From Chrysophaeum taylorii (taxonomy: Eukaryota; Sar; Pelagophyceae; Pelagomonadales; Pelagomonadaceae): a stretch of 62,863 nucleotides of DNA. A model generated the notes under the pieces. It made no database searches and was not told the DNA's origin. It saw nothing but the letters and a program-made list of their open reading frames with translations. The DNA lies in NCBI GenBank assembly GCA_029834535.1, contig JAQMWT010000593.1, forward strand, positions 1 to 62,863. The letters are read 5' to 3'. Positions 5,494-58,692 of the stretch are shown one piece after another (position 1 is the first letter of the stretch; every line of letters starts with the position of its first letter). The position numbers and the translations under genes are program-made.

Positions 5494-6374
5494 CTAGACG
5501 TGGAGGTTGAGCGTCAAGCCAACGTTCGCCGGCGTGACGCCCTTGACGAAGCCGTTGGGGCCGAGCAACGGGGCGGAGTCGTCGGGAACACAGCCGAGCG
5601 TGAGTGTGGTCCGGTCGGCCTGGAAAGACAAGAAAATGAGCACGCGGGTCGAAACGAAAACACCAAAGACGAACCGACCTGCCTGGTCGCCGAGATGGAG
5701 ACGTCGGTGTCGGGGACGCGGTAGGCGAGGGCGACTTGGGGGGGGGCGGACTGCACCGCCGCCTGGAGCTGCTGGATCTGAGCCTGGTAGGTCTGGAAGA
5801 GCTGCATGTAAGACGACTGCTGGGCGGCGGCCTTGGCACCAACGGTCGATGCGCGGTCTGCGCGAGACTTGAGCTCGGTCAAGACTGCCTTGAGCGCGCC
5901 GCGCTCGGCAGCACTGTCCCACGGGGCACCGGCGCGCTTGGCGGCCTCGGCGGCGACCTCGAACTTGGCGTCGACCTCGTCGAAGGGTTCGGTCGGCTTG
6001 AATTGCGCTAGCAGGCGCGCTCTCGTCGCGGAGACGTGCTTCATGTAAAGAAGTTCGAGCCTCGCGTCGAGCGCCGTCTCGAAGAGTGCTCGCGCCTCGG
6101 GGTCGTTGCACTCCGAGACGAAGGCTGAAACGCCGCTGGCGTAGATTTCGTCGAACTTGGACCCGAGCGTGCCATCGTAGGGCTTTCCGTTGGCGAGTTC
6201 TGCCTCGATTTCGACGATCAATCCCTCGACGCTTTTCATGCCGCTCTCGAGGCCTTTGAGGGCCGCCGAGGCCCGCACTTCGGCGGCGTCGCTGCCGCCC
6301 CGAGCCACAAGTGTCCACGGTCGTCTTCTCGCCGCGACGACGGCCCACAGGCTCATCATCACCGTCAGCATCAT
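5494..6374 (-). CDS. secreted helical protein of unknown function
   Basis: Two exons: 6374-5679 and 5619-5494, joined across a 59-bp GT-AG intron (5620-5678). They give 273 residues, and the join continues one frame to a stop at 5494-5496. The start was chosen at the first of two adjacent ATGs because it opens a hydrophobic signal peptide (M-M-L-T-V-M-M-S-L-W-A-V-V-A-A). The frame upstream of it is low-complexity Ala and lies in the divergent promoter. The mature protein is about 60% helix-like, Ala/Glu/Lys-rich, with a Gln-rich coiled-coil segment near residues 185-210. The final ~60 residues are beta-like. No catalytic motif is recognised. It is divergent to the nonaspanin gene, with 341 bp between the starts. 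Confidence 0.7.
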
Positions 6375-6715
6375 CCTTTTTCTCAACAAAAATGAGGGGT
6401 CGGCGACCTTCAACTTCGCGTTCACGTCCGTTGTTCGTTGTAGCCCCCCATCCAATACATCCCCCCCCAGAAACAAACTTTTGGCAAACCGACAACGTAA
6501 CTTTCCGTGGCGAGCCGCTCGGGAAGTGGAGCCTGCTGCTGCTGCTGCTGCTGCTGCCATCGTCGAATTGTCGCACGAGAGGTCGTCGCGATTTTTTTGG
6601 TGGTCGAGGAGGCTCGTGCGTCGTCGTCGTCGTTGTGACCCCGCTGCGCACCGTCTTGAGAAGGCTCCTCCCCTCGGCGCGTTTTTTTTTTGTTTCTGGA
6701 AGCAGCATCATCCAG
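6375..6715. promoter_or_regulatory. shared divergent promoter region
   Basis: 341 bp separate the ATG of the minus-strand secreted-protein gene (6374) from the chosen ATG of the plus-strand nonaspanin gene (6716). The stretch contains a CTG/CTC run (6533-6556, read as poly-Ala on the minus strand), C-runs and a T-run near 6682. No TATA box is evident. Both flanking genes feed the secretory route, which would suit shared control, but this is inferred from geometry alone. Confidence 0.4.
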
Positions 6716-8569
6716 ATGAGACGAGACATGTGGTCGAGCGAGCGAAATGGCGAGGAGGATCCCGCCTCGAGGCGAGGGTTGAGCCACCACCGCACTCGAA
6801 GCTGGGCGTATGTGCTAGCCGTAATGCTGTGCTCGACGGCCGAGGCGGGCTCGAAGAACGGTCCGCGGTACGCGCCGCACGAGCCGCTCAAGCTCCTGGC
6901 CAACAAGGTCGGGCCCTTCAACAACCCTAGCGAGACTTACGAGTACTACTCGCTGCCGTTTTGCTCGCGCAGCAAGAAGAAGCGTCACGAGGATTTTGGC
7001 GAGCGTCTTGTAGGCAACCGCAAGACGGTGTCGCCGTACGAAATAACTTTCCTCGACAACGTCCCGTGGCGGCTCCTGTGCGAGCAGGCATTTTCGCGCA
7101 AGGAGCTCAAAATGTTTACCAAGGCGATCGAAAACGACTACTACTTTGAGATGTTCATCGAGGACCTGCCGATGTGGGGCTACGTCGGCGAAGTCGAGGG
7201 CGAAGACGTGCTCCTCGGCCATCTCGAGACGGTCCGTCGCTACGTCTACCCACACCTCCACTTCTCGATTGGCTACAACGGCGAGCAGGTCGTGTCGGTC
7301 AACGTCTCGACCAACCCCCAGCGCAAGGTCGACATCACCGACGAGTTCGACGGGACGGAGGTCGCCTTCTCGTACTCGGTCGAGTGGGTCCCCAGACCCG
7401 ACCTCGCGTGGGAGAACAGGATGAGCCGCTACCACGACTCGCGCTTCCTGCCGGGGACCTTCGAGATCCACTGGTTGAGCATCATCAATTCGTTCGTCCT
7501 GGTCTTGTTGTTGACGGCCTTCCTCACGATCATCATGATGCGCGTGCTCAAGAACGACTTCTCGCGCTACATGGAGGTCGAGGAGGACGAGATGGGCGAG
7601 GACGAGACCGGCTGGAAGCTCATCAACGGCGACGTTTTCCGGTTTCCGCCCGCATCGAACGCCCTCTGCGCTCTCGTCGGCGCGGGAGCCCACCTTTTCT
7701 GCGTCACCTTTTTGCTTCTGTTGTGCGCCGTGACGAACTGCTTCGTGCCGACCAAGCGAGGCGCGATCCTTACCGCGATGATCGTCCTCTACGCGTTGGC
7801 ATCCCCCGTCGCCGGCTTCACCTCGGCTCGCCTCTACCGCCAGCTCGGCGGCGAAGCCTGGCTCTCCAACGCCCTCCTCGCGACCTTGGCTTTCCCCGTA
7901 CCTCTCGCCCTCGTCTTCGTGTGGGTCAACAGCGTCGCGCTCGCGCACGGCTCGTCGGCCGCGCTCCCCTTCGTCGCCATTATCATCGTCGTCGCTCTCT
8001 TCGCGCTCGTCGCCTTTCCCCTCTCCATCGGCGGCGCCATCCTCGGCCGCCAAATGGCAGTCGACTTCCGCGCGCCCTGCCGCACCACGCGCGTCCCGAG
8101 AGAAATCCCCGCCGAGACCCCGTGGTACCGCCTCCCGCCGGCCCAAATGTTCATGGCCGGCTTCCTCCCCTTCTCTGCTATCTACATCGAGCTCCACTAC
8201 ATCTTCGCCTCGGTCTGGGGACACAAAATCTACACCCTCTTCGGCATCCTCTTCCTCGCCTTTGTCATGCTCGTTGTGGTCACCGCCTTCATCACCGTGT
8301 CCCTCATCTACTTTCAGCTCGCGCGCGAAGACTACCGCTGGTGGTGGCGGAGCCTCCTCTGCGGGGGCGCGACCGGCGCCTTCATCTACGCCTATTCCTT
8401 TTTCTACTTTTTCAACCGCTCCTCGATGGACGGCATGATCCAAGGCTCCTTTTACTTCGGCTACATGGCCATTATCTCCTACGCCTTCTTCCTCATGCTC
8501 GGCTTCATCGGCTTTGCCTCTTCGCTTGCCTTCGTCAAGCACATCTACTCCGTCGTCAAGGCCGACTAG
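6716..8569 (+). CDS. TM9SF / nonaspanin membrane protein
   Basis: A 617-residue single-exon protein of the transmembrane-9 superfamily (EMP70/nonaspanin), which acts in Golgi/endosomal sorting and quality control of membrane proteins. It has a signal peptide at residues ~22-42 ending A-E-A-G, then a ~230-residue lumenal domain including Y-E-Y-Y-S-L-P-F-C, a family hallmark. Nine hydrophobic segments follow (from codons near 7470 to 8550). Motifs in the membrane half include F-R-F-P and the W-Y-R-L-P-P block. The C terminus is K-A-D, matching the family's KxD/E endomembrane retention signal. Length is typical (600-650 residues). The frame is open further upstream to 6311, but ATG 6716 leaves a normal signal peptide and clears the promoter of the minus-strand gene. 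Confidence 0.93.
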   Translation: MRRDMWSSERNGEEDPASRRGLSHHRTRSWAYVLAVMLCSTAEAGSKNGPRYAPHEPLKLLANKVGPFNNPSETYEYYSLPFCSRSKKKRHEDFGERLVGNRKTVSPYEITFLDNVPWRLLCEQAFSRKELKMFTKAIENDYYFEMFIEDLPMWGYVGEVEGEDVLLGHLETVRRYVYPHLHFSIGYNGEQVVSVNVSTNPQRKVDITDEFDGTEVAFSYSVEWVPRPDLAWENRMSRYHDSRFLPGTFEIHWLSIINSFVLVLLLTAFLTIIMMRVLKNDFSRYMEVEEDEMGEDETGWKLINGDVFRFPPASNALCALVGAGAHLFCVTFLLLLCAVTNCFVPTKRGAILTAMIVLYALASPVAGFTSARLYRQLGGEAWLSNALLATLAFPVPLALVFVWVNSVALAHGSSAALPFVAIIIVVALFALVAFPLSIGGAILGRQMAVDFRAPCRTTRVPREIPAETPWYRLPPAQMFMAGFLPFSAIYIELHYIFASVWGHKIYTLFGILFLAFVMLVVVTAFITVSLIYFQLAREDYRWWWRSLLCGGATGAFIYAYSFFYFFNRSSMDGMIQGSFYFGYMAIISYAFFLMLGFIGFASSLAFVKHIYSVVKAD

Positions 8570-19520: not shown

Positions 19521-20494
19521 GCTGGGAAGCGTGATTCGAGTCAGAACAACGTTGAAGTTCCTTCGGTGGTTGACATTGCAGGAAATCTGATAAGCGAAAC
19601 TGTCAGCAAAATCGAGGTCTGAAGAACAATAGCGACAAAAGTGCCTGGGGTGACGTGCGTTAGACGATTGGTGCCACTGAGAATCGCAGCGGGGCAAAGA
19701 TAGCGGGAACACAGGCTGGTATATATGATGGCAGTGTACCAGACGTCTGATGAGAACGTGGCCTTTGGGCAGATATGTTGCATGGTGCATGGTGACCAGG
19801 TTATGACGATGGTCGGAGTCGACAGAAGCAAAAACAGGCGTAAACAGGTTTGATGCGAACGTTGGGTGTTTGGTTGTTGTGGCGCGAGCAAGTTGCCATG
19901 GGCACGACCGCGTCCTGTACGCGAAGATGGAAGACTTCGGACGCGCCAGCGGTGTAAGGAACGAACACGGGTAGACCAGGCTGCTGTATGCCAGGCTACT
20001 GTGGCAGACAAGAAAGTGGCCCGTTGTCGCATTCGCAAGAACGAAGTTGCCATATGGGCCTACGTTGGAGGAGCAGGCGGCGAGCTTTGCTCGTCATACT
20101 CGAATAGACTGCGGTAGAAGTTGGCGAGAGTGGCAAACAGTTGTGGCACGTAAGAACGTCGCAGATAGCGTCGCAAACGTAAGAACATTGCAGATAGCGT
20201 CGCGGGTGCTGAGCACGGAGTTCACTGCGATAGCAAAACCGAATTTTAAAGGTAAAGCGGCGAAAAAGGCGAGAGTGCGCGAAGGAGAACCACAACATTG
20301 TGTTGACACCGTAGATGAAGAAGCCGAATAACACAGCAAAGAAGCGTCGGTCCAGGATCCCGAAGATGAGCGATCCAACCACATAGGAAGCACGAAAGCT
20401 GCGCACGCGAAGAATTGACAGGCACAGCTTAGTTGTGGCAGGTGAAATGCGCGATGGAACGTGATTCGCTGGTTTTACCAGAACCGATAAGCAC

Positions 20495-20750
20495 AAAGAG
20501 GAGTGGATCAACGAATAGGTGAAAATGCACAACGGGGAGTGGATCAACGAATAGTAGAAAATGTAGAACGGGGAGTGGATCAACGAATAGCTGAAAATGC
20601 ACAACGGGGAGTGGAGCAACGAATAGGCGAAATACAGAACAAGGAGGGGAACAACGACGAAGCGAAAAGACAACGAGGAGGGGGGCAACGACGAGGGGGA
20701 AATACAGAACGAGGAGAGGAGCAACGAATAGCGAAAATACAGAACGAAGG
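20495..20750. repeat. minisatellite, ~30-36-bp units
   Basis: About seven imperfect copies of a unit reading roughly 'ggggagtggatcaacgaatag' plus 'ctgaaaatgcacaac'. Units shorten and diverge to the right. It lies in the decayed internal part of the Copia element and gives rise to spurious low-complexity frames on both strands. Confidence 0.8.
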
Positions 20751-21979
20751 GCGCCTGTGCAATGGGAGCTAAAAACAAAAACGAGGGGCTTCCACAAAAA
20801 CACTTTTCCTTCACAAAAACGAGGGGCTTCTGTGGGATGGGGTTGTTGATGTGCTTGCGTCAGAAAATCGGCGGTACACACGCTGACTTGGAATTATCTT
20901 GATTGGCAGAAAGGTGCAAATATGATGAGACAGAGTATCGGGAGGGGGGTGTGAGACGGTGGGTGCGGCTGTTTAAGGCGGTGAAGGGGGTGGAATAGAT
21001 GGTGGTATTAAGAAAAGCGGCGGAGTGGAACTAGAATCAGTCAAGGTGGGAGTAGGCATAGGAGCAGAAAAGGTAGTGTTAGTGGTGGTGGGTTTGGGTT
21101 GGTGTTGGTGGGTGTTGTGGGTAGCGCGTTGTCGTGGAATAGCTAGGAACTTTGAAACTTGCGGCAAAGTGATCCTTGCAGCCGCCAAAATGACAGTGGG
21201 TAGTGCATCGGAATCGAATAGAGCCAGGTTGTTGGGAAAGGGGGGCGTCTAGGGTAGGTCAGTTGGAAGAGTCTGAAGTCGTGGCTGACGACGCGGCGGA
21301 TAGCGCGGCGGAAGTGGTTGTGCATGCCATCTAAATTGATTGTTGTTGAACTTCTCAAGAGTACAACCACAGTCGTCGGTACGAAACGCGAGACGATAAA
21401 ACAAAGCCAGTAAGGCTTGAAGCACGATGCACGTAGTCAAATGCGAGGACACACTCGAGGGTGCGTCGGATCAGGTACAATGCCGAGCAACTTGAACTCC
21501 GGTGATAGGTACAATGCCGAGCAACTTGAACTCCGAGCATGAATTTGTTGAGGAAGTTCGCTACGCGATCCCCACGGCCCTTGTAGACATCGGTAATGCG
21601 CTTGGAAAGTCGCGTGAAGTTCATGTCGCGGTTGTCATGTTGTTCGCGTGAAGTTCATGTCGCGGTTTTCATGGATATCAACATTGTTGCTTGACGCGAA
21701 AGTCTTCTTCAGAGCAGCGAGATGCTGAGATGCTAGTCCAAGGATCGTTGGTCGAGATAATGTGATCGCCGGTAGAGATGATCATGTTCGCGAGACGACG
21801 TGGCCATGGGTGAAAAAAAAAAAAATGTCCCTCACCGCTGAAGGCATCAAGGTTTTGCGAAAGCTTGCTATCTTGAATTTCGATCGAGGACATGGTAGAC
21901 GAAACGAACCGAACGCGTAGCAATGAACTGAAGCCGAGGAGGAGTCGCCACGAAGTCAAGCACAGGCTCGATCGTGAAC

Positions 21980-22049: not shown

Positions 22050-22160
22050 ACAATTGTACACCATATAATAATAACCCCACCGCGAGAATTAATGTAAGCT
22101 CCGAAACCGTCGTGATGGCCACCACGGACACAGCATTATCGACGATATGAACGCAAAAGA

Positions 22161-25100
22161 ATGACGTCAGGAATGAAGTTACCGCCGCTCGCGCACGACC
22201 AGTGTGTCGCGTCCTCTTGGGAATACGCAAAGTCGAGCGACGCCACCCAGCAACGCACGCTCCGATACGGCGACATCATACTGGTCGAAGCCACGACCAA
22301 TAGCTCCTCCAAGTCGATCCTGTGTACCAGTGCGTTTGGAGACGATCTCGGCTTTCTCGCCGTCCCTACGACCGGCTTGCTTGCCGAGGATGTCCCCAAG
22401 GCCTTGTGGCGGCTCGTCCCAGCATTCCACTACTCGAAGACGGAGCAATGGCAAGCGGCGGAGGCCAAGCTACGACTGAAAATCGAAGAGACGGATAACG
22501 AGACAGCTCGTGCGTTCATCGACGACGTCAACACTGCGAGGCACACGTTACAGTGTAAGTACGACTCCGCGACGCACCAAGGGGCACGGCGACCGTCGTC
22601 GCCCGCCAACCGCGTCGATTCGTGCCATTCGCTTGCTGAGCTCACATCAACGTACGCCGAAAGCGGTGAAAGCGATATCACGCAGTACTACGCCGCCATC
22701 AGTCGGTTTGCGTACAATGAGATGCGAGACAACATGAAGATCTTGCAGCAGCTTGTTCGCGGCGAGAAATTAGGGGACATCGTGTACGGGAACGTGCTCC
22801 ATTTGCAGCACATTCTCTCGGGCAAATTTCTCGTGACCGTGCCGGAACCAGCCAAGCTCGAACAGGGCTGCTTCGGTCTCCAGCTCGTGGAACCGTCATT
22901 CGCAAACGCGATGTGCACATTTCAGATTTGGTCTGGACTCACGCGCGAAGGGATAGCACTCCACGCTGGAGATCAGATCCAGCTTTCTGCCAACGATCTC
23001 ACTACAAATCTACGAAATCCGGTCCGGCTCGCAAGGTCGTCCGTCGTCGCATTGCAGATGCAACACAAGACGGTTTACGAAGCCAACCTGAATATCACAA
23101 ACTCGTCCGCCCGGGTGTCATTTGCCTACTACGGAGATCGCGGGCCCCTTGACGCCACAGAACGGATCGACGTCGGCCAATACATTCAGATTTTGAACCG
23201 GGAGTTAGAATTGTCCCTCGTCGCATCAACAAATTCACGTGCCAAGCGAATTGCCACGCGGCCCCTCGGCATTGTTGGCGGCGTGCCGTACTTTCGCCTG
23301 ACGACAACGAGTGTGCACTCGCCCGGCAAAGGTGATCTCCATTGTTTAATGAGTAGTGGACGCTCTCATGTAACGCAGGCTTCTGGGTTATCGAACACGA
23401 GAATCCGCTCCTTGGAAGTCTGGTGTTGCCAAACGAGAATATCCGACTTCGCCACGCCTCTTCCGGGCTCTATCTTGCCGTCGAATACGCAGAGTCGCCG
23501 GACGATGTCGACTCCGGAATCGAGCTCGTTTCCGTCGACGCCGACCGTTCGGCCTTCTGTCGAACGATTTTTCACCTAGCACCGGTCACAGACTCTACAG
23601 TTTCCTTTGTTCCGTCACATGGGCACGCCTGCTTGCTCCGGCATCAGATGCCCAACAAAAAAGCGACCGTGCTCTATCTCAAGGCCGGAGCAAAAAAAAA
23701 AGGAAAAGATTACTCGAGGCTGGCCGTGTTTTCCCCAAAAACCTCGGTGTTCGATGCCATCGAGATCAAATGTGTCCAACATGCAGAAATGCTGGTCTTC
23801 GAAACGATACTCGATTGCAGGAGGGCCATCAATGGGGACATTGACCTTATCAACGCGCTGGTCACTGGTAGAAGTCTCGGGCAGAGCGAGCAGGGGCTTA
23901 AGCGCTGGGTTATGGAAGACACGGAACGAATTCTCGCGCACGTGATCAAGACTTTGACGGTCGACCCGTTGCGAAATGAAGCTCGTCGAAGTGAAGCCAT
24001 CTCAACATACGATGCCCTCAACATCAAGGGGAGAAATATCGAGCGGCATCAAACATTCGCAAGGGAGACTAAACTCATGGACACGCTGATGACGATTATC
24101 GACGCGGCATCGTCTCCCGTCTTATCAGAGTTGGAGTGGAAGCATGCCACACCCCGTAACTTGCTTTTTTGTCTCGGTTACGATGCACTTCGGCGATGCG
24201 TTTTGAACCACGATCGAAATCAGGAGTACTTCGTTCGGAGCACGCTGACGACCGCTTCCTCTTCGTCGACCCATCGCTGGGTAGATCTGGTTGTGTTCTC
24301 AACCGGAGTCTGTGCCGAGAATACTGCCATGACAACATGCTAAAACTCAAGTCGTCATCAGGTCGCATATAGCAGAGCCGGTCGGCGCCGCGACCCTGAT
24401 CACCACTGTAACAGACAGAGTCCATGCTCACATGAGCGCGACGACTCTGGTTTCGTGTCTACCTTCCTGTCTGTCTTTGTGTTATGTCGCTTATCCCACA
24501 AAAAGCGCGTTCACCACAAGAAAGGCTTTTTTTTGTAATTGGCAGCTGGTTGCCTTCGCTTGAATGCAGACAGCAGCGTGTGTGCGTTTTGTGACAGTTG
24601 CGTTGAGTGCAGCGTGTGAAATCCATGTGAAATTTAGACCCAGGTCATAGAGAGCAATGCAAAGCTGAATCGCGAGGTCGTGACTGAAGCAAGAATCATG
24701 AAGTTCGTCGAAATTCTGACCAGCCATGGCCCGCGGCACGACTTGCTTCATTTTTTCTCGGCAACCTGCTCGTGCGACGGCGAAGCAATGGAAAAACATC
24801 AGGAAGACTATCTCAAGCTCTACACTTCCCCGCAGTTGAAGGACCAGCTCTTCATTACTACGAGCTCATCGGTCGTGGGTAACAGGCGCACGACGTGGCC
24901 CCACAAGCCACGTCGAACAGCTCACGCGCCCTTCTTGGCAGAGAACGAATTCAACTACGGCTTTTTGGAGGTTTTCATTCGCTGGTCGTCGCAGCCCGGG
25001 TGGTGTCCTGGATGCAAAAAGACATTGTACTTTTGCCCTGACGAAATCGGGACTGCGCACAATAACCAGTGGGTCCGCTTGCACGACGCAGTGTGGACTC

Positions 25101-28100
25101 TCGACCCCGCAAAGTTCGCAGCCGAGTTCCGGAACGCTGACGCGGCTCACCAGGAGCAGCTCAAACGATTGCAGTGCCTTGCGAAGTACTATGTTGAGCA
25201 AATCAATTTGTTTGCATCTCTCTGCTACTCTCAGAGTTATAATGCCATCTTTAGCATCGAGCAAGAGTACTCATTCGCGTTGTGTCTCTGGATCGTCGCA
25301 GACTCGTCGCTTCCCGAGATGCTCAGAGCCGCTTACACCAGACTGGTGTTGCACCTTCACATCGTCAGATATCCACACCGGCCACACTGCGGATTTCCAA
25401 AGGTCCCAGAACGCGTCTGGGTCAACGATGCATTAGATCTGCGAGTGGCACAGCCAATACCGTCGTTTGACCCCCGGAAGATTATCAACGTCACCGACGC
25501 TGGGGGCGTATTTCAATCGCCAGAGAAGTTCTATTTACTTATGGCATTTATCGAGGGACATCTGAACAATATCAGAGATTCGGGACAGCTCGACGCGAGC
25601 GAGGTCGACAAAAGCCATGTGACTCTTCGCATACTTGAGATCGCCGAGCACCTTGTCGACTACGGCTTTGTCGGAACTGTTGACGGCGACGTCGAGGCGT
25701 TGTTGAGGCCTCTTTGCTCCATCATCGGACAACCAAATCATCGCGCGAGTGATAAACGGCGGGGCCAAAGAGACTACCTCGATGCTTTGCGACGATCAAA
25801 TTCACCATCTCAAGGCACGCCGGCCTCAGCAATGGTGGTATCCTGGCAACCACCGACAACTGGTGTACTGAGCCCTCCTGAAGAGGGCGAAAAAATTATT
25901 TTTGACATAAAGGAATGCATCATCCGCATCCTGCGATGCTTTTCAGATTTTTTTTTCCAGCGCTCCTTGCCTCATTGCCTGGCCATGTGTCGCGAGACTC
26001 AACGCCTTAGTATGCGCCAAGACGCGGCGACAGCAAGGGTGACCAAGCGCCAGGAGATAAAGTTCGGGGCCATTTTTCCCGTCACGGAAACTACCGCATC
26101 ATCAACAAACCGACCAGACGAAGCGTTCCTGGCCCTCTTCGACGGCCGAGATGCGATCGGCGCTTCGGATGTCTTCAAGCTTGCGGGTATCGAGGCAGCC
26201 GAGGCCGACCGAATAATGGTGGATCTGCTGATGTGTGATTCGGAAGGACTGGTACGCACAGCACTTAATTTTCTAATGCGATACCGACGCGACATCGATT
26301 TTTTCTTAGAAACGCTCTCGGACTGCATCGTGCTCGACATGGATCAAGTCGAGCTGTTGAATAAGTCCATGGGCACACGATTCGGAAAACTTCCAGTTTC
26401 GGACACGTTGGTTGTCCTGAAGACACTGGTATGCGAACTCGCGGAGGTTGTCTACTGCTGCGAGCAGTGGCTTAACAATAAGCCCGGGATATTTGGCACA
26501 AATGTGACGTATACCATCGCCCTCAATACTTTCATCGACCTCTTGGATGGGACGAAATACGATCGCTCGACAATTCGTCGACACCAGGGCATCCTCCTCA
26601 AGATCGGTCTAACGAAGCCATTGGCGCTGTGTCTTCAGCTGGAAGTGGGTCTTATTGATGAGCATGGATTGAGCGACGACGAGGCCAACGATCGAAGGCA
26701 ACGGCGCGATGAACTCTTATTGCTTGCGTTGCGATGTGCCTGTCTATTCGTAACGGACAACGAAGAGACACAGCGACATATGATAGCATACGTCAAGCAT
26801 TTCGGCGAAAAGAACCTGACATCATTTGGACACACGCGCCACGCTATCGACCGCGCAACTGTGGCCATGGAACTGTTTGCGAGTACCTTCAACGCAAATC
26901 TGGCACTTGTCGAACAACAGGGTATCGCTACGCTCCGCAAAGCGTTGAGTTGGCTCTTTTACCTCGTCGACGCACCAGCCGAGTTCAATGACGCAGTGGA
27001 CTCCTCAAGATTTGCTGAAAAACGCGCTATCGCCATCTACGCAGCAGGTCGTGTTGTCGAAATCATGTTCGTCCCTGGTCCGCGGGCTCGTGACATTTGC
27101 AAGCCACATCAGGACACTTACGGCCAGGAGATTTTGGCAAAGATTGCCACCGAGCCTGCTTTTGCCAAACGCGCGGTTTTCTTTGGAATCAATCCGAAGG
27201 CGAGCGCAACTGCACGCGAAACTGGGGAGGCAGCGGGTCTGATTCATACCACTATCATTCGGATCCTCGTGAGATGCACTGCGGGGAACCATGCGATGAA
27301 TTCAGTTTACGTGTTCCGTATTCTTCCATTGGAGAACTATCTTTGGGCCATAATGTATGCCTCGCCATCGATGTGTGCCGCTTATCTCCAGCTTCTGCAC
27401 AACGTCTACTTGAACACAGACTACTTGCACCCGATTCAATTGGAAATGTCATCGGACACTCTGTGGGCGATTGCTTACCAGGCTGCTTTGATCATGGTCG
27501 ATGATGCGGCTCGCCCAGTAGCGCAGTCAACGTTGGAGACAGCAGGATTGATGCCCGAATGGTTCGACTCCTTGTTGCCGCGTACGCTACCTCGATCGAA
27601 ACGACACGCCTCAGAGATTGTTGACTTGATCTACCGACCAGAGTTTGCACGTCGTGATGGACCCCACCTACATCAACTATGTCTTGGAACCAAGACCCCT
27701 GAAGACAAGCTATGTTGTCAGCATCTGGATGCCAGTCTAAAAGATAGAGTCTTCCGCGGCCTCGCGGTTGGCATCGTCAACGCGTTCGTGCAGCGGTTGT
27801 CCGAGCAGCACGATATAACAAGCGAAATCAAGAAACGTGCGAGCACGCTGAACACCATAATTCACTTGTCGAGTGGCTCGCTGGCTGATTCAGTCGGGCA
27901 CGAGGCTTTGAAAATCGCGCGCACAACACTCAGCTCACTCTTGTTGGTCTCGAATCTCGAGTCGACACCTCAATTGTCGAGATTCTCCAAAAGGGAGCGT
28001 GACAGGTGCAGTTACCTTCACGTGCCAGCAGTTCCAAAACAAGGTGGTACGCAAGGAAGTCCGGCTTACCACTTTGATAAATTCGACCCGAAGCAATTTG

Positions 28101-31100
28101 CTGCACTTGTCAAGACACAGCCGTCAGTCAAAAGGGCACTCGACGCGAAAGAAGAAATGCTCATAGATATCCTCGAAAGGAAAGAAGAAGCGGATTTTGA
28201 GCGGATGTCCCCCCTCCGTGAAGGTCGCATGAAAGAAAAAAAATGGGTAGAGTTTGCTAAGCATCTGATGAATTTCTGCAAACACAGCTTGGACGCAACC
28301 GCTGTCAGCAAGCGACGTCCTGTCGTAGACATACTGCGTTTATTCACACAACACTTAGAGCGACTGCAGCGCAAAGCCAAACTGAGCACGAGGGCGTACG
28401 AAGAAAACAAAGAAGATAGACGTGGAATCCGACAAGAAGAATTCCGCGATCAGCCTGAGCATCGATTGCTCAAGATATTAAACTCGCCCTTGATAGAGGC
28501 TTTGATCCTCAGTGTCGTGGTTCTTGCGGTTGTAATGGATCACACAACCCGCCAGACGCGGAACGATAAGCTAATTCTGACCTGTCTTTTGCTTTCTACG
28601 TTTTCATTTGAATTTTTCTGTCACGCTGCGATACACATCTCGGTTCATGGTACTGTTCTGAAAGGTGTCCGCAGTTTGTTCAATTCTTGGCTTCGCTACG
28701 TTGACGTGCTGACGATTCTCTTGGAAGTACAAGTCGGGCTTTCCAGCGTCTGGGCTTAGTGTAAATGCCCTTGATGATGTGAATTCGTGCGACCATGCAA
28801 AACAACTCAGGTTCTCGTGGAGGTCGCCTCGAGAAAAGGCCCTTCCGTTAACATGGTATCTCACGGACGGTGCGTTTTGTTAAAATGTCTAGATGTAACA
28901 CATGCATTGAGTTCGCGCTCAGGTATTACAAAATCCTCCGCCTTCTAAAGTACTGCCGCTGTGTGCGGCTGTGCCGTGTGCCAAGGGCGAGACGATTCCT
29001 TGAGACGGTATCGCTCTTCTTTGATGTGGCGTTCCCTACAATGAACAAAGTCATCGAGGTCTACAAGCAAAAACAGCAAATGAGCGAATCCTCGAGTGCA
29101 AACAGGATTGTATACCAAGAAGCGCAGCGGGCCTTCGTCAATCCATCAGCAATCGACGGTGGTGGTGTGCTTTTTTCAATCTTGTGTTCGCAGTATGATC
29201 GTCCGTTGAGGCTTGCCACAGTCCAACTTTGCATTGCCATTCTGGAAGGAGGGAACGTGGAAGCTCAGAAATGGCTTATCAAAGGATTGGGAACCAGCGA
29301 GTTCTTTTTGCTCTACGCAGGCGAGCTCCGGGTGACATCGCGTATGCTCAAGCAACATCTCCCAAACCTCTTGGAGAACGACGACGACTCCAGTCTCGAT
29401 TTGTCTCTCGTCGAAAGCGTGACGCTGCTCAACCGGTTTATCACGAGCCTTCTCGCGGAGCGTCAGGTCCGCATGCAAGAGATTATGCTGCAACAAACAG
29501 GACTATACAAATCCGTGAACCTTATCGACACCATTGATGATTTTCTGGCAGTATTCTTCAAGCGTGAGCGCAGCACGTTGGCTCTCTTCCGCGCATTGAA
29601 CATTGAAGAGGTCGCGATGATTACCAGCTGTATACAGGTGCTGACCGCCAGCATGGTCGGCTCGCACGAGGCCAATCAGTCGGCTGTCGCTCGCTCCGGG
29701 CTATTGGATATTTTGAGCTCGATCCTCTCGATGCCGGCATCTGTCATGCTTCCTGTCGGGGGGCTTATTAGTAGCCACAGAGAATTCGACGAAATGGCAC
29801 TTTCTGACATGCCGCAGATTCTCGCGATGGTACGACTGATACACAACACAGCACAATGTGTTGCGGCGTGCTTTGAAGGGCATGGCATCACGAGTGCGAG
29901 ATACACGAGTTGGAGAGCTAAGGTCGATGCGAATATCTTGGCCGATCTCATGATCGAATGCTACGACATAAAGAGGAAAATGAAATCGCGCAGCGACAAG
30001 ATGATAATTGATGTCGCAGAAGTTGGGGAGTTTGCGCATGAAATGTATGATCTCTGCAGTGTGATCATCGTCGATCTCTGCACCATAAGACTCAAACTTC
30101 TTGGCGCAGAAGCGGTGCGCACTCACCAGGAGTTTATGTCGCTCGCGCACGTCGACGTCGACTGGAACGGACGTGTTGAGCGCGTTATTTTCACTTTGCC
30201 ATACTATGCAGACAGCATCAGTCCGGTGGCAAAGTCCGTATTCGAGGAATCTATAGATCTTACGAATACGGAGACACGTATGACAGCCTTGTTCGAGTCG
30301 GGACGTGTGTTGATTCAGGAGGCCGAGCATCTCTTTGCAGTCTCGCGGGAGTCGGCGTTCTATCGGTTCGTGAACAAAAGATATCATCAGCTTCACAAGT
30401 GGCTCTATGCCACGGCGCTTCTCCTCAACCTCCACGTCCTACTGACGATCGAAGGCCATGGCACATTGCGTCATACCTTCAAACTGGAAAAGGGCCACAA
30501 AAGGCACGGTAGACCGCACTCACCGAGGTCATTCCTGTACAGAAGTTATTTCACGATCGTCGCCGCCACGCTCATTACAGTTGGCTATTTCGGACTGTTT
30601 ACGTTTGCGCTGGTCAAGAGCTACCGTCGGACCGCGACCGAGCATGCGAAAAAGTTCTGTGGATCACAAGATGAACCATCCGACGCGCACGGTCGAGTCA
30701 TGTCCGATGATAACGTGGACGAAGGAGGAGAAGACGACGAAGAAGAAGAACGAACGCCTGATGAACCTCCGAAAGAGCAAAAGACGACGCTCAGAGAGAT
30801 AATTTACGCAGCAAAGAATAAGCTATCACGCTGGGTCGATAAAGACGAGCAACGTACTGAGACGCGAACGAGACCATTGCTCAATCGTATCGCAACATTG
30901 TGCGACAGCATCAAAGCGGAATACTATTTCCACTTCTACATAGCGCTGGCCATGACGTACATGATGAGTTACGGGTACAGCCGAGAACTTGTCTTAATAG
31001 GAACAGTGTACATCGGTCTTGCCATCCCACGCGTATTACGTCGAATATTGGACGCGCCACGCTCAACTTTAGAGCTCTTGTATGTGGTACTGTACGACGC

Positions 31101-32005
31101 TTTCGCGTCGAACGTGTCGGCTCAAGCCCATTTAGGATGGTCGGTTGTCTCGATCTCTGGCTTCACTTGGCAGTACATCTGGTGCTTTCTCTTGTTAGAC
31201 GTCCTGCTGATATCCGACGAGCTAAAAAACTTGCTCAAGGCCGTTTGGATTCCTCGCACGCAGCTTCTTCTCGCCTTGTACGCGCTTGTTGTGTTTACGG
31301 TGCTCTTTTCTGTCGTCGTCTACGTGCTCAACTACGAGACTAGCGGCAATGGCGACGTCAGCCCATTGCGGGCCCACGCCGGCGATGATGACAACGACCT
31401 CGCAAACGCTTGCAGCACCCCATGGATTTGCGTTATTCGCGATGTCTACGTTGGTCTCATCGACGGGTAAGACTCAGTGCTTTTCGAGACGCCAACTCGC
31501 GCGAATATAATGAATGTGTGCTCACAGGCAAATGTACAGCGCGACTTTGGGCGTCGACTATTTCGATGGAACATCGCCAACGGACGCCATGAAGCGAAGA
31601 GACAACGTCGCACGGATCTTCGTGCAGTTGGTCTTTTACCTGATAGTCACGTTACTGCTGATCAACGTTTTCACCGGCATAATCCTCGACACGTTTTCCT
31701 CATTGCGGGAACAGCTCAACGAAAGAAGAGCCTTGCAAGCTTCCGAGTGTTTTGTATGTGGACTCAATGACGGGAACACCGACATCACAAAGCACGAAGA
31801 AACAGAGCACAATAAGTATAATTATCTCCTTTTCCTCTCACACGTCGAGAAGAAGCGCGCGACACACGCGGCCCTCACTGGTGTCGAAGCGTACGTGGCC
31901 TCGTGCGCAGCGGAGAAGAGCCTTGCATGGCTCCCAAGGAAGCGAAGTTCCGCCGACATGACGCGGCTCCACGTGCTTGAAGCTCCTGTGACAGTAAGCC
32001 TGTAA
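22161..32005 (+). CDS. IP3-receptor-like Ca2+ channel with voltage-sensor domain
   Basis: A giant intracellular Ca2+-release channel of the IP3R/RyR family (~3000 residues). Exons read: 22161-23331; 23379 to about 24250-24280; 24644 to about 28726; about 28912-31466; 31528-32005. N-terminal beta-trefoil/MIR: D-I-V-Y-G-N-V-L-H-L-Q-H (near 22770), then W-V-I-E-H and L-R-H-A-S-S-G-L-Y-L (23385-23465). RIH-type helical repeats occupy about 23800-24240 and 24.6-28.4 kb. A voltage-sensor-like module spans 28450-29000. The RIH-associated region includes A-I-L-E-G-G-N (near 29240) and L-L-Q-Q-T-G-L-Y (29490). The six-segment pore domain starts near 30390. S6 ends T-G-I-I-L-D-T-F-S-S-L-R, and the C-terminal zinc motif C-F-V-C-G-L...H...H (near 31750) is diagnostic. 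The 24.25-24.64 kb join is unresolved, and the 28.73-28.91 kb splice is not unique. Confidence 0.88.
28450..29005 (+). other. voltage-sensor domain (S1-S4) inside the channel gene
   Basis: S1 (N-S-P-L-I-E-A-L-I-L-S-V-V-V-L, codons ~28481-28535), S2 containing F-S-F-E-F-F (near 28605; aromatic-acidic pair as in charge-transfer centres), and S3 with W-L-R-Y-V-D-V-L-T-I-L-L (near 28690; conserved Asp). After an intron, S4 follows at 28921-28995, with R/K at residues 1,4,7,10,13,16,19 and then a further R. This is the arrangement of voltage-gated cation channels and is absent from ordinary IP3 receptors. Confidence 0.75.
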
Positions 32006-39446: not shown

Positions 39447-41434
39447 TTAGTTGAGGTAATGCAGCCACTTTGTCGGAATGATGGTGTTGTTCGGGCACGC
39501 CGGCCAGGATGTCAGTTTGTCATACACGTAAGGTAAATCGGTGTTGGTTGGCGAAATGGCGGCGTAGAACTGCTCGTTGGTGAAGGTCGTCCCCGTTGGT
39601 ACCCAGTCGAGATTTTTGAATGGCAGCACGTCATCGGCCCGATGTCCCGGACATGTGGTGTTGCGTACGCATGTGGGCTTCGCGAAGGATTCGGAATCTT
39701 CGATCGCATCCCAGTCGCATACGACGCGGGTGTCCGAGAGTACGGACGTGACGTGGTGGTACGACCAGGTTTCTTCGAAAGTCAGGACGTTCTTCGACGC
39801 AAGGAGCCGGATGAGCTGGACAAACCGCTCGGAGAGGCCGTGCAACGGCCAGAATAAAGGGTCTTGAGGAGCTGCCGAGGTGAACATCTCCCCGGGATGA
39901 CCGACGTGGCACATCTCTGCCAAAATTTCGTCGAACGTTAGGCCGACCTTGTCGACAAGAAGGGTTTGAAGCCGAGGCTCGATGTCCAGCAAACCTGTGA
40001 GATGCAAGATCTCCGAGGCCGACCGGCCTTTGATGACCTCATCGGGGCAGTAGCAGACGCAGTCCGTTTCGGGGATTCCCGCGCAATCAGTCGGGCAGTG
40101 AACGAACCCCTGGCGCCACAAAAATTTCGAGCCGAGAAGAAACTGGTCAGATATATGCGGACTCGAGTCCATGTCGGATATGTTGGCGACCATCTTTTCG
40201 ATGAACGTGCTGCTCGCATCCCAGTGCCCGCCGAGCATGATGTGGACCTGGCCGTGGAGGCCGCCGTTGAGCGCGGAGCTCACCTCGCTAAACGAAAGAG
40301 GGTCCATTTCCAGGCCGGTCATAAAGTCGGAGCATGTTGGCAGTTGGTAGAGAGCGTCGGGAACTCCCAGAGTGTACCGCGATCTCATCAAGTACGGAAT
40401 AGCGTTGGTGTTCCACGGCGACCGCAAGAGACCGTAGGGGTTGGTGATATTGGAAAATTCGCGCGCGTTCTTGAGCACAGGAGTAAACGCCCAGCGTCCA
40501 TTTGTGATGACGTGGTTGTCGTGTTCACCTGGATCGGCCGAGCCAAACCAGTCGTCGTCGAACACGATCGACGTCGAGTATTTAGTCCCTAACGGCGCGT
40601 CGATGGTGTAGTCCCAGTAATTACTCGCGACACGCGCGTCGATGGCCTGCAAGCTTTGCTCAAACCTACACCAAACAAGGCCCTGTGTCACGATATAACC
40701 GGAGGATGTACTTACTGCATCGTAATTCCGACGTGGTGATTCAGGAAACCGGCGTCGTCGTGCCAGTGATCGCACGACCGATCTGCCGCGCCGTAAAGAT
40801 GCTCACGTACCAACCACGCCGCCGATCGAAACTTATCGCCATACGCCGCTTCACCCTCGGCTTGCGACGTCCGATACACGATACTTAGCGCATCGAAGTA
40901 TCGCACGCGGTCGGCTGGCGTCAGATCACGAATTTCCCGTCTGACGTACTTGGCCGTGCACGCGAACTGATACGAGTCCCCACCCGACGACACGACCGTG
41001 ACGGAGTGCGTGCCAGTCTTAACGAACCGCACGCGAACTTGCTTACCAGTTGGCATTTCTCCCTCCATTCCGTCCGTGCCAGACATGATGTCCCACCGCA
41101 GCTCGCCAACGTCGGCGTAACCGGCCGGAAAATCCAGAGTCAGCGTTGTCGGCTGATGAACCTCGACGAGATTTACGTGAGGGTATAAGCCATCTCCAAT
41201 AACACCCAGCCTATCTTCGTATTCGGATCTCGCCAACAGTCGCGGTGTTAGGACACTCTCGCGCTGTTGCTGAAACGCCATTCCCTCGTCCTCGTCTTTG
41301 GCCGCGGAAATGATCGAGGTCGAAAACGCCGGCGTCGGGTGCGTAAATCTCACAACTGCACCCAAACCGAAGACAGCGACGGCCACCAGGAACGGACCGA
41401 GACGCACGCGCGTCATCCGGCACCCGGGGCGCAT
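39447..41434 (-). CDS. tyrosinase-family copper oxidase
   Basis: Two exons, 41434-40716 and 40665-39447, joined across a 50-bp GTAAGT...TAG intron (40666-40715) into a 645-residue frame. Tyrosinases are type-3 copper enzymes oxidising phenols to quinones. An N-terminal hydrophobic segment (residues ~11-27) suggests a signal anchor or peptide. A ~100-residue beta-rich region follows, resembling a cupredoxin-like fold (inference). CuA site: C-D-H-W-H-D-D-A-G-F-L-N-H-H (near 40755), then F-E-Q-S-L just across the intron and Y-W-D-Y-T. CuB site: G-L-H-G-Q-V-H-I-M-L-G-G-H (near 40240) and Q-D-P-L-F-W-P-L-H-G (near 39855); the usual second His of the H-H pair here is L-H. A Cys-rich insertion lies at 40090-40030. 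Probably extracellular or vesicular; the role could be pigment, cell wall or defence. Confidence 0.88.
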
Positions 41435-56150: not shown

Positions 56151-56328
56151 TTATAGCTTAAAAGAAAGTCTTTTTAGAGGAGTGCGTGTTTGTTGTTATT
56201 AATTTTTTCCTGGTTTTCTCGTTTCTTGGGCCCCCGACAATTATTATTATTATTATTTCTCATTTCTTAAGCCCCGCCCCGGCCGGGCGGCCGACAAATA
56301 GATTCTTCTCAATTGTGTGGTCTCGTTG
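56151..56328. promoter_or_regulatory. promoter/5' leader of U-box gene
   Basis: Unique DNA between the last satellite fragment and the ATG. Contains an ATT trinucleotide run (56239-56258) and a T-rich stretch (56163-56215). No TATA box certain. Confidence 0.35.
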
Positions 56329-58692
56329 ATGCCAGTAGTCGATGACGTAATCGAGCAACGGTTCTTGTGGTTCTTTGGCAGGATCGCGATTGCGCAGGAC
56401 AAGCTGGCGACGGTGGCGGCAGTCGGGAGCGCGGTTGGAGCGATCCAATCGCGGTACGACAAGGAGCTGAGCGCTCTCCGGCCGCAATGCCGCAAGGCGT
56501 GCACGCTTGCGGCAATAGTTGAGGAGGTAACGTTAAAGATTCCTCGGGACTTGGAGGGCGCAGCGGGCGATGTGCTGGGCGTGTTGGTCGAGGGCTTGTG
56601 CGGGATGGAGCAAGTTGTGGCGGTGTGCATGACGCACCCCGTGCGCGCCAAGCTGTTGTCGCGGCAGTACGTGGCGACGATGCGCGAGAACGCCGCGAAG
56701 ATCTCTGGCGCGCTGTCGGAGCTTAGCGGGTTGGTGCCCGATCCAGACGTGGTTCAGGCGCGCGAGGAAGTCGAGGAGATCTTGGGGGCGTTCGGCGCGT
56801 TCCGAGATCCCGTGGGCGACGATTTGAGAGAGGCGGTGCGGCGCGGCGACGGCGCCGCGCTCGTAGCCAAGCTGGTGAGAGACGGGATTGTGGCGGGCGA
56901 CGATCAAGCCCGCCACCAGGTTCTCGAGCTCCAGCGCGACGACAAGGAGTTGGTGGTTGACGACGGCGAGAATTTCGTGGCGGCGCTGCGGGCTCTGGCC
57001 GTCTCGGCGACGGGTCCCGGCGTCGAGCCGCCGATCGACGACGACGACGACGACGACGCGTCGCCCGGTACGCCTCGTAGTCTCGGAGTCGGAGAAGAGG
57101 ATCGGCCCTCAAAGTGGCGGGTCCCGTCGCCGCCGGAGGAGCGCGACGATTCGTCCGAGGGCGGGCCGCGCGTCCCGGACCATTTCAAGTGCCCAATCAC
57201 CCTCGAGATGATGGAAGACCCCGTTTTCCTCTTTACGCAGGCGGGCAGGTCGTTCGAAAGACTCGCGCTCGAGCAGTGGCTGGCGCACCACCCGACTGTC
57301 GATCCCCTCACAAACGAGACCCACGCGACGCTCCTCGAGTTCGCACCGAACCGCGTCCTCCGCGAGGTCATCTCGGCCTGGTGCCGCGATCACGATCTCC
57401 CCGAGCCGCGCGCGACCCGAACGCCGGACGGTCCGGCGCGCGGCCTCGACGACGGCCCGCAGCCCCGTAATCTCCAGCGCTCGGCCTCGCAGCTCCACGC
57501 CGAGCTCGAGCAGTTGAGTCGCGACTTCCCGCAGACGGGCGCGCTCGTCCATCGGCTGGCGGCCGACTACGCCGACGTCGAGCGCGAGGGCGCCGCGCGC
57601 GCGATCGTCCGCGTCTGCGACGAAACCGAGGACGAGGAGGCGACGACCCTCGAAATCCGACACGCGGGCGGCATCCCCGCCCTGGTGGTGCTGCTGTCGT
57701 CGACGGGCGCGGGCATGCAGGAGGCGGCCGCCTTGGCGCTCTGGAAAGTCTCGAGGCGACCCCGCGAGAACCGCGTGGTCATCGCGAACGCTCGAGCTAT
57801 ACCGCCGCTCGTCCGCATCCTCTCGAGCGCGGCCACGCTGGTCACCAAGCAGGCCGCCGCCGGAATCCTCCAGAACCTCTCGTGCTACTCGTCCAACTTC
57901 AAGGTGGCCATCGCCAACGCGGGCGCCATCGCGCCCCTCGTCCGCCTCGTCGGCCTCGACCCCGCCGCTTCCCCGCACGTCGACGGCGTTCGCGAAGACG
58001 CCGCGCGCTGCCTCTGGAGCATCGCCGTCAACGAGCAAAAGAAAATCGCCATCGCCAGCGCGGGCGCGATCGCGCCCCTCGTCAGGTTGGTCGCCGAGGG
58101 CACCAACGACGGCGTCCGCGAGGCGGGCGCCGGCGCGCTCCAGAACCTCGCCGCGAACAACTCGGACAACAAGGCCGCCATCGTCGCCGCCGGCGCGATC
58201 GAGCCCCTCGTCAGGTTGGTCGCCGTCGGCACCACCGACGGCGCGAAGGAGGCCGCCTCGGGCGCCCTCCAGAACCTGGCCAAGTTCAACGACGCCAACA
58301 AGGCCGCCATCGTCCGCGCCGGAGCGATTCCCCCGCTCGCCGCCGTCGTCGGCGACGCCTCGAGGTCAGACAAGGCCAAGCGCACGGCCGCCCGCGCCCT
58401 CGAGAACCTCGCCTGGAATAACGATGCCAACAAAGTTGCCATCGCAAACACGGGGGCGATCTCTGCGCTTGTTCGTCTCCTGCAGCGCGCCGACGCCGCG
58501 ACCGACGCCCGCGCCGCCGCTGCCGAGGCCCTCAAGGTGCTCACGAGGTCGCGCCAAGCGAGAACCAAAATCGCTAAGGCCCTCGGCTGGCGCTTCATCC
58601 TGACGCCCTCCGAGACCGACGTCGACGAGCTCATTACCTCCTACGTCCGCCCGCACGCGCGCGCCGCCGCCGCCGCCGCGGCCAGAAGGTGA
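56329..58692 (+). CDS. U-box / armadillo-repeat E3 ligase (PUB-like)
   Basis: A 787-residue single-exon protein. Residues 1-270 form a helical N-terminal domain, as in plant PUB-type proteins, with an Asp run (GAC repeats, 57036-57056). U-box at residues ~285-355: H-F-K-C-P-I-T-L-E-M-M-E-D-P-V (near 57180), R-S-F-E-R and a leucine-rich tail, a RING-like fold that binds E2 enzymes without zinc. From ~57640 to 58560 there are about seven armadillo repeats with the recurrent G-A-I-x-P-L-V-R-L-V and A-L-Q-N-L-A patterns, a substrate-binding surface. The start was set at ATG 56329 (the frame is open upstream only to a GTG). Probable ubiquitin ligase in cytoplasm or nucleus; targets unknown. Repeats 4-6 are very alike, suggesting recent internal duplication. 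Confidence 0.93.
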   Translation: MPVVDDVIEQRFLWFFGRIAIAQDKLATVAAVGSAVGAIQSRYDKELSALRPQCRKACTLAAIVEEVTLKIPRDLEGAAGDVLGVLVEGLCGMEQVVAVCMTHPVRAKLLSRQYVATMRENAAKISGALSELSGLVPDPDVVQAREEVEEILGAFGAFRDPVGDDLREAVRRGDGAALVAKLVRDGIVAGDDQARHQVLELQRDDKELVVDDGENFVAALRALAVSATGPGVEPPIDDDDDDDASPGTPRSLGVGEEDRPSKWRVPSPPEERDDSSEGGPRVPDHFKCPITLEMMEDPVFLFTQAGRSFERLALEQWLAHHPTVDPLTNETHATLLEFAPNRVLREVISAWCRDHDLPEPRATRTPDGPARGLDDGPQPRNLQRSASQLHAELEQLSRDFPQTGALVHRLAADYADVEREGAARAIVRVCDETEDEEATTLEIRHAGGIPALVVLLSSTGAGMQEAAALALWKVSRRPRENRVVIANARAIPPLVRILSSAATLVTKQAAAGILQNLSCYSSNFKVAIANAGAIAPLVRLVGLDPAASPHVDGVREDAARCLWSIAVNEQKKIAIASAGAIAPLVRLVAEGTNDGVREAGAGALQNLAANNSDNKAAIVAAGAIEPLVRLVAVGTTDGAKEAASGALQNLAKFNDANKAAIVRAGAIPPLAAVVGDASRSDKAKRTAARALENLAWNNDANKVAIANTGAISALVRLLQRADAATDARAAAAEALKVLTRSRQARTKIAKALGWRFILTPSETDVDELITSYVRPHARAAAAAAARR

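Follow-up and report, generated by a model that had tools for sequence, protein, structure and literature searches.

Calcium-release channels of the IP3R/RyR family are regarded as ligand-gated; in animals, a second, distinct protein conveys voltage to them. In skeletal muscle, two proteins, Cav1.1 and RyR1, couple depolarisation directly to Ca2+ release. Voltage-sensor domains (VSDs) are also attached to other effectors, as in Ci-VSP and Hv1, where the sensor is N-terminal. We analyzed a 62,863-nt stretch of the genome of Chrysophaeum taylorii (Pelagophyceae; contig JAQMWT010000593.1 of assembly GCA_029834535.1; hereafter the window), which harbors a gene for an IP3R/RyR-superfamily protein with a sensor of the voltage-gated ion channel (VGIC) type. 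Its parts follow the order seen in the animal inositol trisphosphate (IP3) receptors ITPR1-3, namely trefoil, RIH, solenoid, RIH_assoc, six-segment pore and CxxC/HxxxxH motif, whereas the Danio type 1 receptor has no match to the sensor and the window protein lacks most of the IP3-contact residues. In contrast to Ci-VSP and Hv1, the window protein has an internal sensor, and its effector is an IP3R-type channel. The nearest sensors by sequence are those of Cav/Nav channels; an L-type Ca channel (8hlp) matched the family sensor profile at 6.4e-35, over a stretch that we take to be repeat III. A Cav/Nav sensor runs straight into its own pore helices, whereas the sensor of C. taylorii lies about 745 residues from S5 in the window protein and about 1425 in a paralogue on contig C404.

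Oomycetes possess PKDRR proteins, polycystin-type channels with RyR domains, which together with oomycete ITPR resemble the present case in being stramenopile proteins with rearranged IP3R/RyR-type domains (available part of PMC7399828). The same part mentions no voltage sensor inside ITPR for the oomycete proteins, and no such domain is mentioned for stramenopile, diatom or parasite IP3R-type channels in the accessible portions of five reports (PMC7399828, PMC11085791, PMC9694693, PMC7016017, PMC3194816). Nor is a sensor-in-IP3R layout described in the accessible portions of PMC8301844, PMC4887697 and PMC11381013. A limited literature search, with sources available in part, found no description of the layout, which does not establish its absence from print.

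The window gene and its embedded sensor

The gene (22161-32005, forward strand) was joined from five open frames by a six-exon GT-AG model with phases matching at every junction, and its 3078-residue product contains no internal stop. The spliced model holds a 1373-codon frame and 9.2 kb of stop-free coding sequence. Pfam searches for Ins145_P3_rec, MIR, RIH, RIH_assoc and the Ion_trans pore were run on the separate frames. Among the family hallmarks claimed in a preliminary description of this DNA, the trefoil (Ins145_P3_rec), RIH and RIH_assoc exceeded their cut-offs, which places the product in the RIC superfamily, with the union of these domains in one protein resting on the splice model; the MIR-like stretch stayed below its cut-off, as did the pore end with Ion_trans, just short of 25 bits (Table 1). 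Residues 164-1060 matched a profile of 18 relatives (8e-36), and the pore is continuous with RIH_assoc (positions 1925-2610 of the family profile against residues 2159-3060; 4.3e-46). A protein search with the window protein over 7980 scored candidates gave no close relative; the top matches were fish IP3 receptors (5.5e-36), and only ten candidates reached E ≤ 0.001. We conclude that the window gene encodes an IP3R/RyR-superfamily protein with a VGIC-type sensor.

The S1-S3-like segments form the end of frame 24638-28759, and S4, followed by RIH_assoc, opens frame 28852-31470. The F-x-x-acidic S2 and the S3 Asp reported in the preliminary description are present in the spliced translation, and S4, credited there with at least seven R/K at every third position, carries nine in succession; the features of that description lie at the places it gave. 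Among 2000 shuffles of the protein, no such run exceeded seven, a length reached once. A sensor profile built from 18 relatives gave the spliced S1-S4 45.2 bits, versus 7.1 for the best of 500 shuffles. When the same profile was applied to 32 ordinary channel-domain stretches of the genome (two of which, L031 and L044, are one domain), 15 scored 21.5-40.6 bits and 17 scored at most 8.2 bits or nothing; the window sensor is only slightly above the best of them.

Pfam Ion_trans matched the spliced S1-S4 at E 0.0083, aligning S1-S4 positions only, but its 15.8 bits were under the curated cut-off of 25. On frames 24638-28756 and 28852-31467 taken separately Pfam reported no sensor; introns split the domain. 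The sensor claim is based on the family profile, which is more sensitive than Pfam Ion_trans. With its four-helix VSD fold, an S4 basic at every third position and acids in S2 and S3, the predicted protein carries a voltage-sensor domain embedded in the cytoplasmic solenoid.

That the two halves can be spliced in phase was borne out by 110 frame-keeping GT-AG joins within the limits set (10 single-intron and 100 two-intron), all of which keep the domain at 19.8 bits or more. The S3-S4 splice is ambiguous, the five best models lying within 1.7 bits in sensor-profile score. In place of the one intron first supposed, there are probably two (28727-28810 and 28870-28922) flanking a 59-base exon between S3 and S4. 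This model scored 44.7 bits (rank 5 of 110; top model, 46.4) and is preferred because its CAG acceptors match those of the gene's other introns. A single S3-S4 intron was rejected as a candidate: the ten such models draw on no acceptors other than ATTGAG and CTAAAG, whereas the gene's other introns end in CAG, and the best reached 41.9 bits.

Table 1. Features of the IP3R/RyR-family gene in the window
Feature	Position	Strand	Basis
Open frames joined by the model	22116-23579, 23357-24343, 24638-28759, 28852-31470, 31514-32005	+	ORF list
Exons	22161-23331, 23379-24280, 24644-28726, 28811-28869, 28923-31466, 31528-32005	+	Splice model
Introns	23332-23378, 24281-24643, 28727-28810, 28870-28922, 31467-31527	+	GT-AG, phase-consistent
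N-terminal trefoil, Ins145_P3_rec	22719-23018	+	Pfam PF08709, 41.2 bits (cut-off 23)
MIR-like stretch	23379-23569	+	Pfam PF02815, 17.7 bits (below cut-off 25.6)
First RIH domain, split by intron 24281-24643	24008-24829	+	Pfam PF01365, 12.7 bits for first piece (below cut-off), 23.7 for second (cut-off 22.3)
Second RIH block (family profile 1247-1301), upstream of the sensor here	26162-26353	+	Profile 3.7e-6, 13.4 bits; profile-profile 4.5e-5, probability 69%
S1	28472-28540	+	Hydropathy 2.25; family sensor profile
S2 with F-x-x-E (F2011, E2014)	28565-28639	+	Spliced translation, family sensor profile
S3, first part (D2045, E2052)	28688-28726	+	Spliced translation, family sensor profile
Proposed 59-base exon, S3 end and S3-S4 linker	28811-28869	+	Donors GTACAA, GTGCGT; acceptors CTCAG as in the gene's other introns
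S4, nine consecutive R/K at every third position (R2072-R2096)	28923-29001	+	Spliced translation
RIH_assoc	29434-29727	+	Pfam PF08454, 37.7 bits (cut-off 28.5)
Pore helix S5	31264-31320	+	Hydropathy 2.86
Selectivity-filter region GLIDG(QMYS)ATLGVD, split by intron 31467-31527	31445-31570	+	Spliced translation; GGxGD not kept
Pore helix S6	31616-31672	+	Hydropathy 2.56; Ion_trans tail, 23.5 bits
C-terminal motif C-x2-C ... H-x4-H	31748-31810	+	Read from sequence and translation

Elsewhere in the window, frames for an Endomembrane protein 70 (EMP70; 6260-8566, forward strand, 554.6 bits), a tyrosinase domain (39450-40802, reverse strand, 37 bits) and a U-box protein with armadillo repeats (56302-58689, forward strand) were found. 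Short imperfect tandem repeats were seen by eye in the translations upstream of the gene, at about 20430-20800.

Relatives, sensor site and descent

The 70.8-Mb C. taylorii genome, in which the window is contig C593, was searched for paralogues and control channel domains. A second gene, the C404 paralogue (L006:463-9999), is mostly one exon and carries the sensor inside a single 9.9-kb open frame. Its protein is CTAYLR_006814 (100% identity over the 3179 residues searched), and its predicted structure supported the sensor fold; with Pfam Ion_trans the sensor scored 26.7 bits as a cut piece and 24.3 in the genome search (cut-off 25). The sensor was found in 21 of the 23 best-matching proteins, C404 and Aureococcus included, and was absent from P0013 and P0023. 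The carriers include environmental-DNA proteins, some of them shorter, and the Aureococcus proteins are annotated merely as hypothetical or as IP3 receptor. In the wider family, then, the segment is not generally absent or intronic. The carriers share the embedded sensor but have it at another site in the solenoid than the window protein, and P0013, P0023 and a third C. taylorii paralogue, C432, lack it. Across 17 of the 18 profile sensors, aligned as A2 with P0006 left out, no sequence departs from the S2 Glu, a pair of S3 Asp and a pair of S4 Arg. S4 has at least five R/K at i+3 in 18 of 23 and seven in C404, and P0001 has Leu in place of the S2 Phe. Sensor-bearing IP3R/RyR-type channels are apparently a clade without a known description.

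The C432 paralogue (L008/L009; C432:21001-41000, reverse strand) is an IP3R-type gene with a GGGMGD filter, in which no sensor was found; a hydrophobic stretch before RIH_assoc was considered and rejected, as it falls in a 59-base GT-AG intron. The frame downstream of this gene resembles, by eye, a ribosomal protein. At the C-terminal end of the C404 protein, a heptad-like stretch seen by eye leads into a C2 domain (Pfam PF00168, 25 bits, cut-off 22), possibly a membrane-binding tail on an IP3R-type channel; P0006 also lists a C2 domain.

The sensor lies between the first and second RIH blocks in all 21 carrier relatives. The window protein departs from this rule: with the family profile, its second RIH block (residues 1198-1261) is followed by the sensor (from about 1963) and then by the third solenoid block (from 2159). 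Profile-profile alignment gave the same order (4.5e-5, or 1.1e-4 in a joint run, at a probability of 57-69%; 8.2e-8; 1.9e-6). The site is thus shifted by about 770-900 residues relative to that of the relatives. The later site probably corresponds to the type 1 loop 1698-1771, a loop associated with a further splice insert and with a kinase site. The Danio type 1 receptor has no counterpart to the sensor stretch of the family profile, which it bypasses from residue 901 to residue 967, at the place where relatives carry the sensor. One insect IP3R has an alternative splice site at residues 922-929, conserved in human IP3R1 (available part of PMC8301844), so that this loop seems tolerant of change. 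In the window protein, the solenoid encoded by 26918-28225 (residues about 1450-1885, some 435 residues), downstream of the second RIH block and upstream of the sensor, has no significant match to any family profile. Residues from about 1886 align weakly with the solenoid preceding the sensor in relatives, as if the sensor had travelled together with its flank.

A backbone tree was built from RIH_assoc to the pore with the sensor columns excluded. Of 36 rows, aligned by means of the carrier profile, 35 entered the tree and P0022 (6% filled) was removed beforehand. The tree groups the carriers, window protein included, at 96/91, but the placement of the window protein is unsure because of its very long end branch (3.91) and because the alignment came from the carrier profile. 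Two label changes are needed on this tree, which may be read as one gain of the sensor and one loss, in P0013; a strict grouping of carriers without P0013 was rejected (p-AU 0.00156). A wrong gene model rather than loss may also explain why P0013 lacks the sensor. P0013 (residues 951-990) is a sensor-less close relative of P0010 and P0019, a natural deletion. A tree of the sensors included the 14 of 32 control stretches above 20 bits. At 99/96, it separated a group made up of the embedded sensors, that of the window and L038, a channel domain of C. taylorii, from the remaining 13 channel domains. Support for the embedded and window sensors alone was 39/0, and a grouping of the 18 embedded sensors without the window sensor was not rejected (p-AU 0.296). 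Either the sensor at the window site moved within the solenoid or it was separately gained.

Pore, IP3 contacts and proposed mechanism

The usual GGxGD filter is not kept in the window copy. The intron that splits its filter region has two candidate acceptors, 31528 and 31540, and use of 31540 would drop the bracketed QMYS. The filters are SGGIGD in C404 and GGGMGD in C432, and of the 16 relatives in which this region is aligned, 8 have a filter other than GGxGD. Because the GGxGD signature is missing, we call the window protein a divergent relative without a standard IP3R pore. Basic IP3-contact positions of the binding core are kept at three of nine in the window protein and one of nine in P0001; the underlying alignment to Danio type 1 weakens in the latter half of the core. 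IP3 gating of the window protein is doubtful because these residues are mostly absent, and for the same reason the main signal may now be voltage, possibly together with Ca2+, instead of IP3. The positions that we assumed for Ca2+ activation missed the expected letters, and we make no claim on them.

On balance, we favor the reading that these proteins are voltage-modulated Ca2+ channels, a clade in which a Cav/Nav-type S1-S4 was inserted in a solenoid loop. Voltage gating is what the conserved charges by themselves suggest; we infer voltage sensing, pore coupling and the membrane occupied as follows. The four sensor helices would sit in a membrane beside the solenoid, and the S4 arginines would shift with voltage against the S2 and S3 acids. 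The solenoid would pass this movement to the C-terminal pore, so that Ca2+ flux is modulated by voltage. The endoplasmic reticulum (ER) membrane potential is about 0 mV (available part of PMC11381013), which favors a sensor in the plasma membrane or in a vacuole-like store.

The same potential, which an ER-located sensor would see (available part of PMC11381013), also speaks for a trans arrangement, in which the plasma membrane would house the sensor and a store, the ER or some other, the pore, one polypeptide bridging the contact and depolarisation triggering Ca2+ release. Insertion far from the pore in primary sequence and the Cav/Nav identity of the nearest solved sensors point the same way. 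We nevertheless regard this arrangement as unlikely, since nothing is known to place the insertion loops against an opposing membrane and cis and trans look alike by sequence. Its fuller form, a one-protein excitation-release coupler whose solenoid spans a narrow cytosolic gap and mechanically opens the store-membrane pore without a second protein or messenger, the module having been placed at two solenoid loops in evolution, likewise seems to us a minor prospect. The S1-S4 could instead be a structural anchor or regulatory module that has lost voltage sensing, as its absence from P0013 inside the clade, the S2 Phe-to-Leu change in P0001 and its varying site among proteins might suggest. Drift, however, would be expected to erase the charges first, whereas 17 divergent sequences all keep the S2 Glu, both S3 Asp and the two S4 Arg, and at least five S4 R/K at i+3 persist in 18 of 23, which makes this role quite improbable.

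For the window copy in particular, the very long branch, the altered filter and the lack of a close relative in the protein search would fit a decaying or non-conducting paralogue, with C404 as the working voltage-sensing channel of the species. This, too, has a low probability in our view: the long frame and coding sequence are stop-free, S4 has nine consecutive charges against seven in C404, and half of the 16 aligned relatives also have non-GGxGD filters. A mis-joined model of two adjacent genes, 22161-28759 and about 28885-32005, on separate mRNAs could appeal to a stop in each of the two frames (28757-28759 and 28849-28851) and to an ATG at 28885 in frame with S4. Such a break would cut one S1-S4 domain that 110 frame-keeping joins restore; the halves are the N- and C-terminal parts of a single IP3R-type protein, and relatives have both parts and the sensor in one protein. 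We consider it very hard to sustain.

If the proposed voltage modulation holds, the window protein resembles the pair of RyR and Cav1.1 in tying voltage sensing to a large RIH-bearing release channel, with two proteins in muscle versus one in C. taylorii. Neither the window frames nor C404 yielded SPRY or RyR repeats with Pfam. A Cav/Nav-type sensor built into the solenoid would, if true, be a new gating plan for these channels. The clade offers a natural test of how force is transferred through the solenoid to the pore, and its members would be candidates for fast voltage-coupled Ca2+ signals in algae, Aureococcus included.
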